Assembly (NCBI GenBank): GCA_947089855.1
Contig: CAMUML010000034.1
Location: 1 to 49,449, forward strand
From: an uncultured Eubacterium sp.
Lineage (GTDB): Bacteria; Bacillota; Clostridia; Lachnospirales; Lachnospiraceae
Length of the DNA: 49,449 nt
Reading direction: 5' to 3'
The notes under the pieces are model-generated. The model did not search any database. It was not told where the DNA came from and worked only from the letters and a program-made list of their open reading frames with translations. Every line of letters begins with the position of its first letter. Position 1 is the stretch's first letter. This document shows, one piece after another, positions 7,821 to 8,951 of this stretch. Both the position numbers and the translations under genes were made by a program.

Positions 7821-7885
7821 GGCAGCCGGCAAGTGGATGTGGCGTATGTCTTTCTGGCTACCCGGACGCTGCAGCCAGAAGCCAG

Positions 7886-8079
7886 GGCTTTCCGGCTGTA
7901 CCGCTGCGAAATGCAGGTACCTCTAAGCATTCTGTGCCATGGTTACTGGTACCGGACGAACCGGGGATTGACCCGCCATCCGTGGCGGCAATCCCCAATT
8001 CCTGGCATCCGTGCCCGGAAATTCTGACGACGGCAGAATGCCAAGAGGTACCAGCATTTCTCCGCAGGTACAGCCAGAG
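7886..8079 (+). repeat. Palindromic structured element, copy A
   Basis: This non-coding segment starts about 65 bp after topA and folds into a long outer stem. ggctgtacc (7894-7902) pairs with ggtacagcc (8067-8075), and aaatgc..ggtacctct..gcattctg (7909-7933) pairs with cagaatgc..agaggtacc..gcattt (8033-8059). Inside are at least two hairpins: ggggattg/caatcccc (7963-7970 and 7989-7996) with an inner perfect ccgcca/tggcgg stem, and ttcctggca/tgcccggaa around 7999-8020. A second copy lies inverted at 8441-8668. ORFs that cross it are not conserved in frame between the copies. It is a MITE-like or structured-RNA element of a type I cannot name; it may also serve as the topA terminator. Confidence 0.8.
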
Positions 8080-8437
8080 TGAGCGCAAATATACAGACAA
8101 ACACTAAAATTTGCGTAATAATTCTGATTTACGAGCGCCATTATCTTGAATTGTATGGTAAACTTTAATGCCCGTGAGTATAAGTACACCAATTTACAAC
8201 TTTTCAGGTTTTGACATATTATTGTAAAAACTCAAACTATATATTGTATATATTTGTGACTATTTAATCTATATCTTGTACCTAAACAAAAACTTGTAAA
8301 CTGGTGTATAAGTACAAAATTTTGTATATAAACACCGTATGCAAGTAGTTTGGAAAGAAGTAAATTTGCACAAAGCAACCGGCTAAATTACAAAACCGCA
8401 AGCTATACATATATGTGTAGAACGCTGTCAATATACA
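8080..8437. other. AT-rich spacer between the two palindromic elements
   Basis: There is no gene here. The sequence is much richer in A and T than its flanks and contains an 11-bp direct repeat, gtataagtaca, at 8178-8188 and 8306-8316. TTGACA at 8211-8216 is followed by TATATA/TATATT 21-23 bp later, which is too far for a standard promoter. I cannot assign a function. Confidence 0.5.
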
Positions 8438-8440
8438 GCC

Positions 8441-8668
8441 GCATCCACAAGCGGGGGCTTTCCGGCTATGCTTGCGGAGAAATGCTGGAACCTCTTAGCA
8501 TTCTGTCATGACCAGAATTTCCTGGCATGGATGCCAGGAAAAGGGGATTGCCGCCACGGACGGCGGGTCAATCCCCGGTTCGTCCGGTACCAGCAACCTT
8601 GGCACAGAATGCTTAGAGGTTCCTGCATTTTGCAGCGGCATAGCCGGAAAGCCCCCGCTTGCGGATGC
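8441..8668 (-). repeat. Palindromic structured element, copy B (inverted relative to A)
   Basis: Read on the minus strand, this segment matches copy A at roughly nine of ten positions by eye. It is bounded by 31-bp inverted repeats, 8441-8471 and 8638-8668, with one mismatch, followed inward by a second pair of near-perfect arms (8480-8507 and 8600-8627). The inner hairpin tttcctggcat/atgccaggaaa is fully paired here, and ggggattg/caatcccc is kept. Where the stem bases differ from copy A the partner usually changes too, so pairing is preserved. The terminal repeat also founds the tandem array that follows. Confidence 0.8.
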
Positions 8669-8857
8669 AGCGGCCGAGAGGCCAATCCCAAAAACGTCCC
8701 CAAAAACAGTACCAACATAGCCGGAAAGCCCCCGCTTGCGGATGCAGCGGCCGTAAGGCCAACCCAAAAAGCGTCCCCACAAACAGTACCGGCATAGCCG
8801 GAAAGCCCCCGCTTGCGGATGCAGCAGCCGTAAGGCCAACCCACAAAAGCTTCCCAG
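8639..8857 (+). repeat. Tandem array of a 77-bp unit (two full copies and one partial)
   Basis: Units begin with catagccggaaagccccc at 8639, 8716 and 8793, exactly 77 bp apart; the third fades out near 8857. The first ~30 bp of each unit equal the terminal inverted repeat of palindromic element B, and the remainder is a C/A-rich stretch with GGCC pairs. The units abut each other with no unique spacers, and 77 is not a multiple of three, so the array is neither CRISPR nor a coding repeat. Confidence 0.9.
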
Positions 8858-8951
8858 CATCCAAAACATCCGCAATGGTTAACCAAGCCCATTGCAGGGT
8901 GGACAGCAGCCCGTTCATAGAAGTTATATTCATGAATTATAATCAAATTGG

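Follow-up and report, generated by a model that had tools for sequence, protein, structure and literature searches.

TwoAYGGAY copies between topA and codY in a Lachnospiraceae genome: probable members of a dispersed, MITE-like palindromic DNA family

TwoAYGGAY, entry RF01731 of Rfam, was introduced by its discovery paper as a probable RNA, scored there as probably not cis-regulatory, with sequences coming from the human gut, Gammaproteobacteria and Clostridiales (PMC2864571). Rfam itself gives the family the type Cis-reg and places it in clan CL00106, the clan into which E. coli CsrB also falls when scanned as part of this work. Sequestration of CsrA by TwoAYGGAY has been proposed in a motif study (PMC4333381), and the family is mentioned in passages of three further papers (PMC11701678, PMC7657543, PMC11661157). 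The Rfam 12 paper warns that eukaryotic MITEs may pass for microRNA families, in a passage that does not name TwoAYGGAY (PMC4383904), and our literature search found no paper describing TwoAYGGAY as mobile.

The window, i.e. the whole stretch of 49,449 nucleotides analysed here, comes from an uncultured Eubacterium sp. and carries two copies of this family, A and B, in the 1213-bp gap between topA and codY. Both match the full RF01731 model above its gathering score of 43, copy A with 88.3 bits over 7901..8067 of the minus strand and copy B with 106.8 bits over 8472..8638 of the plus strand, and both A-Y-GGA-Y terminal loops are present in each of them. A preliminary description of this locus had matched the copies to no known RNA or MITE family and had named such a match among the results that would speak against it; the RF01731 match is one of these. 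It had also put A on the plus strand and B on the minus strand, and here the Rfam match reverses the assignment, the conserved strand being minus for A and plus for B. What it had read directly from the letters stands: the two copies sharing about nine of ten bases and a multi-hairpin fold are found at 88.6% identity between B and the reverse complement of A (193 bases, ungapped alignment), with folding beyond that of shuffled sequences, and every letter it gave for three compensated stem pairs is right. Matches to the ToxI and sX7 RNAs fall below their cut-offs and were disregarded.

Whereas Rfam models the centre only, the palindrome seen here runs further outward. Namely, the inverted arms at 7855-8078 and 8461-8684 are complementary at 86% of positions across 224 nt, and we aligned 18 strong copies from the window's genome, each comprising the core with 45 bases on either side. 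On the basis of the inverted repeat, this alignment and the fold, copy B occupies 8436..8684 of the plus strand with both outer arms, its outer stem beginning near 8438, while the inverted repeat and the alignment place copy A at 7855..8078 of the minus strand, with the 3' outer arm retained and the 5' outer arm unrecognisable past about 8078; the earlier extents are to be revised at these two points, although both copies are where they had been reported. Folded together with its outer arms (8434-8675), copy B reaches -159 kcal/mol, whereas shuffled versions average -88 kcal/mol (z -14; 0/200 shuffles), and the opposite strand of the region folds too (z -15), as is to be expected of a palindrome. 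The sequence and the RF01731 alignment locate the first and second GGA hairpins of copy A through their loops, both ACGGAU, at 8007..8012 and 7978..7983 of the minus strand, and, together with the fold, those of copy B at 8518..8541 (loop AUGGAU, 8527-8532) and 8543..8576 (loop ACGGAC, 8556-8561) of the plus strand. The 5' ends of A and B face each other across an AT-rich spacer at 8079..8435 (30% G+C over 8090-8430). Three tandem 77-bp units at 8639..8869 of the plus strand begin within the 3' outer arm of copy B; short tandem repeats lie 3' of other copies in this genome as well, e.g. in L007, L008, L009 and L015.

The two copies are far from alone. RF01731 has 20 matches in the window's genome, to which our model R1 adds weaker copies beside those of L007 and L015 and one copy in L003 that is cut by a contig end. 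Among 13 genomes of the genus, six hold from at least 7 to at least 40 copies and in seven none was found; these copy numbers, like the counts of carriers, are to be read as minima, given strict filters and the scoring of at most 6 candidates per genome in the family and at most 105 in the genus. Outside the window's genome, 117 loci were retrieved from at least 144 places, with at most four per genome. Many dispersed copies that are patchy among relatives, as in MITEs, are what a search for further copies, suggested in the preliminary description, brings out (20 here; 0 to 40 in the 13 genomes). Furthermore, topA and codY are adjacent in congeners too, and in the 8 of 12 other genus genomes with a stretch reaching both genes, the gap, as extrapolated from partial topA alignments, measures about 178, 239, 138, 162, 182, 90 and 215 bp, and 669 bp in one. 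In G401, whose gap is not among these eight, we saw an element-like stretch in the retrieved locus, from which topA is absent.

We consider it probable that A and B belong to a dispersed, non-coding, MITE-like DNA family with TwoAYGGAY at its centre, in which pairing would be mainly a matter of DNA and the GGA hairpins would be cargo. In this proposal, the family is a long imperfect hairpin whose conserved centre would be what Rfam describes as the TwoAYGGAY RNA; in relatives with intact ends it is seen to be dispersed, to exist in internally deleted versions too, and to have inverted terminal repeats as well as 7-bp target duplications; and the window's copies would represent a subtype with other ends, which presumably reached the topA-codY gap by insertion. 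The family would be moved by a transposase acting in trans. Pairing of the long stem would owe less to RNA selection on each copy than to arm-to-arm template switching, or to the mobile source copies having to form a hairpin or cruciform, and the two GGA hairpins would be conserved cargo.

Evidence comes from relatives such as Roseburia, where the same core lies inside elements of ~310 bp with inverted ends. In particular, the palindrome in several genomes extends outward to the ends GGTGTCAAAAGG ... CCTTTTGACACC (GATTCGGGTGTCAAAAGG-type ends). The end pattern matches 26 and 30 times in genome G176, as against 2 and 0 times for a reversed control pattern, and by hand count 34 of these 56 end matches form 17 inverted pairs, nine of them ~302-306 bp and eight 65-195 bp in length. 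We also scanned 84,980 species genomes for the ends only, independently of the core, at an end spacing of 262-292 bp, and obtained 63 intervals at 62 loci in 31 assemblies, as judged by title. Lachnospiraceae or its genera, including Roseburia hominis and R. porci, appear in 27 of the 31 titles, the remaining four being Oscillospiraceae, Muribaculaceae, Clostridia and Bacillota. Model R1 found the core in 61 of the 63 intervals and missed it in L273 and L309. What is more, exact 7-bp direct repeats occur at the element edge in 24 of the 63, with 0.41 expected from swapped flanks, and almost all of them sit at one offset, immediately outside GATTCG-GGTGTC. A smaller, partly overlapping set gives exact repeats in 9 of 23 (3.2% for swapped flanks) and repeats with at most one mismatch in 13 of 23 (9.1%). 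When all subtypes are pooled and palindrome edges are used, a direct repeat of at least 7 is seen in 13 of 122 elements against about 2.7% for swapped flanks. This signal is weak, since an element's true end does not always coincide with the edge of its palindrome; for one subtype, the ends-only set decides the matter. Finally, a core-less 98-bp form with an identical junction is present at three loci, possibly with some similarity in the flanks, and we do not claim three independent insertions; it suggests, short of proof, that the core is dispensable for spread.

Since inverted ends enclose the core and 7-bp target duplications flank it in relatives, we describe the TwoAYGGAY family as MITE-like, and the evidence that TwoAYGGAY is the interior of a MITE-like element in relatives is what is new here. 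The resemblance to MITEs covers, in those relatives, the short and non-coding nature of the elements, their inverted ends, target duplications, internal deletions and many copies, while Rfam's entry ends where the palindrome of the relatives still continues to transposon-like inverted repeats. On the other hand, the family differs from MITEs in having several end types around one core, and in an interior with two GGA hairpins that has been preserved in many genera. Transposition alone does not account for such wide conservation of the core, a point against our main explanation. No parent transposon was seen either: in a non-exhaustive search of 20 stretches with single ends, there was no ORF of at least 150 aa between paired ends. 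That an Rfam cis-regulatory RNA from a CsrA-binding clan appears in relatives as the interior of a transposable element alters how its covariation, its copy number and its regulatory label should be read.

The window's own subtype is less clear-cut. The sequence common to the copies of this genome extends beyond the core by about 50 bases on its 5' side and 46 on its 3' side, and these shared flanks are not inverted repeats of each other, unlike the ends in relatives; consequently, A and B are filed as MITE-like and not as proven MITEs. A target duplication was not established for the window's copies, the ends of the subtype not being sharply defined. Mobility of this subtype is suggested by its copy number, its patchiness and the occupied topA-codY site.

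The arrangement of A and B is typical: by hand count, 38 pairs of neighbouring copies lie no more than 3 kb apart, and 33 of these are oriented head to head (p 2e-15 against 25%). Together with the multicopy, intergenic and palindromic character of the copies, this recalls the REP/BIME repeats, which depend on a RAYT (Y1) transposase for their movement; the mobile unit would then be the head-to-head pair. We regard such an origin as highly unlikely. TwoAYGGAY elements are much longer, and a Y1 transposase is not enriched in carriers (32/65 as against 187/332 other genomes, p 0.34). The 7-bp target duplications of the relatives are, to our knowledge, not expected of Y1 enzymes. Spacers of the pairs are mostly unrelated, save for 123 bp (79% identity) common to the A/B pair and a pair on contig C17, for which reason we rejected the pair plus spacer as a single mobile unit. 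The C13 pair has a spacer of 2.4 kb containing a 434-aa ORF, for which Pfam gave no match, and in some head-to-head pairs (L105, L125) the cores are only 82-92 bp apart. In G402, several contigs (C6, C51, C116, C117, C126, C146) have a plus-strand copy no more than about 250 bases from their start; these repeats thus seem to be points at which draft assemblies break, and our count of pairs is probably too low. Members of a weaker subfamily, scoring 48-60 bits with R1, keep the outer stem (L019 1501-1665, L020 1501-1666, L007 1060-1226, L015 561-729); the members in L019 and L020 have loops other than AYGGAY, and the members in L007 and L015 each form a head-to-head pair with a normal copy. By eye, L002 has, about 200-300 bases upstream of its core, a minus-strand partner with both outer arms and no centre, as if a hairpin had been deleted.

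The position of copy B upstream of codY on the same strand, taken with the Rfam type, would also fit a cis-regulatory RNA leader. However, the downstream gene, called as the longest ORF, shares the strand of the copy in 54 of 134 cases and is oppositely oriented in the other 80, which largely refutes this reading, and we saw no common function among the genes beside the copies (27 ORFs), whose roles are unrelated. Copy A, moreover, is directed at the 3' end of topA, and the discovery paper had itself, as noted above, doubted cis-regulation. The chance that these are leaders is accordingly close to negligible.

What keeps the long stem paired is central to the choice between RNA and DNA. The preliminary description had taken the preserved pairing as a sign of selection on a folded RNA or a DNA cruciform, with arm-to-arm correction as the alternative. 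The pairing is real, and the question was well put. Namely, two-sided changes are found in 20 of 88 stem pairs among the 18 strong copies, against a shuffled mean of 7.6 and with 20 reached in 0 of 500 shuffles, while 97.7% of cells in the alignment are paired; most of the change resides in the outer helix (17 of 36 pairs two-sided), nearly all of which lies outside the Rfam core. An RNA stem tolerates G-U and not A-C. In DNA, every G-T read from one strand becomes an A-C when the complementary strand is read, and a DNA process therefore predicts equal numbers of G-U and A-C mismatches. In our main set (150 distinct elements, 42 genomes), isolated mismatches of the long stem comprise 108 G-U and 119 A-C, with 87 and 98 in the outer part and 21 and 21 in the core part, and over all aligned positions the counts are 367 and 382. 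It is the RNA-selection part of the earlier interpretation that these numbers do not bear out. By the same method, 6S RNA, for which 30 of 39 matches were used, gives 12 isolated G-U against 1 A-C and, with a weaker contrast, 37 against 18 over all aligned positions. Nor is the equality merely a matter of fresh decay, as mismatches shared by at least two copies of a genome number 6 G-U and 7 A-C (single ones, 33 and 34; 12 genomes, with 13 skipped for low identity among copies).

That said, a second set of 53 TIR-bounded elements, chosen after setting aside seven loci whose two genomes also figure in the main set, has 53 G-U against 29 A-C (p 0.011), and the small hairpins have 21 against 10 (p 0.07), while the pooled long stems have 161 against 148 (p 0.49). 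A weaker RNA-level constraint on the elements is thus possible. From these counts we conclude that it is mainly as DNA that the long stem is preserved; the mechanism may be arm-to-arm template switching, which has been described for hairpins in general (PMC8794818). Fast arm correction was not seen in 11 recent copies of G176, which differ from their consensus 67 times in one arm and once in both, and this tells against the DNA-level account. A further feature is clearly strand-specific: in the 5' arm of copy B (8486..8498, plus strand), T 8486 and T 8496 face T 8624 and T 8614 as conserved T.T mismatches 10 nt apart, and CTTAG at 8494-8498 stands opposite CTTAG at 8612-8616 around one of them, at the same positions in relatives. 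Isolated U.U mismatches outnumber A.A by 173 to 8 in the core stems and by 53 to 1 in the second set, and the CTTAG/CTTAG feature looks like one that binds a protein. The evidence that the covariation of this family is a poor guide to RNA function is likewise new, and the case warns that a palindromic mobile element can mimic a structured RNA by covariation alone.

Of 196 distinct elements, 161 have GGA in loop 1, 165 in loop 2 and 138 in both, and a TCC-bearing loop occurs a single time; this count includes 50 of 61 TIR-bounded cores and omits L019 and L020. The carriers that we found nearly all possess flagella genes and CsrA as well. In 397 genomes of the bacterial family, CsrA is present in 61 of 65 carriers as against 148 of 332 others (p 6e-15, Fisher, kinship ignored), while the Y1 transposase, serving as control, is linked neither to carriage nor to CsrA (p 0.11). 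Flagellin, present in 64 of 65 carriers and 149 of 332 others, predicts carriage at least as well, and with 205 genomes having both genes, CsrA and flagella are inseparable as predictors. The two GGA hairpins resemble a pair of CsrA-binding sites, and a putative binding of CsrA is deduced from this motif and the co-occurrence only.

Each copy could accordingly be asked to be what the motif study cited at the outset would have it: a small RNA gene in the manner of CsrB or RsmZ, whose GGA hairpins would sequester CsrA and thereby act on flagellar genes in flagellated Lachnospiraceae. The paired GGA hairpin loops and the clan shared with CsrB, RsmY and RsmZ agree with this, as do the loop and co-occurrence counts. 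We nonetheless find it unlikely that the copies are such genes. The long palindromic stem shows little G-U bias; 7 to 40 dispersed, lineage-specific copies do not look like a small group of sRNA genes; cores as close as those of L105 and L125 leave little room for promoters; and TwoAYGGAY differs from these RNAs in being dispersed and mobile. There is also no CsrA hit in the window's genome, in which flagellin is present, though that genome is only 89.7% complete, and carriage is predicted by flagellin no less well than by CsrA.

A combination of the MITE-like reading with this function may be entertained as a tentative possibility. Namely, a transposable hairpin might persist because each insertion adds putative CsrA sites, so that copy number would tune, or depend on, the CsrA-flagellum circuit; the long stem would then be constrained as DNA and only the GGA hairpins as RNA, with several end types acquired around one core. 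Why, inside its bacterial family, the element should be nearly restricted to hosts that have both flagella and CsrA becomes a concrete, testable question, and so does any action of the conserved GGA hairpins on CsrA. Within the genus, CsrA gives no hit in G405 either (under 90% complete) and is present in the other 11 genomes. Five of the genomes (G398, G399, G400, G404 and G401) have extra CsrA-like ORFs of ~110-160 aa beside the usual 73-80 aa, with up to six CsrA matches per genome.
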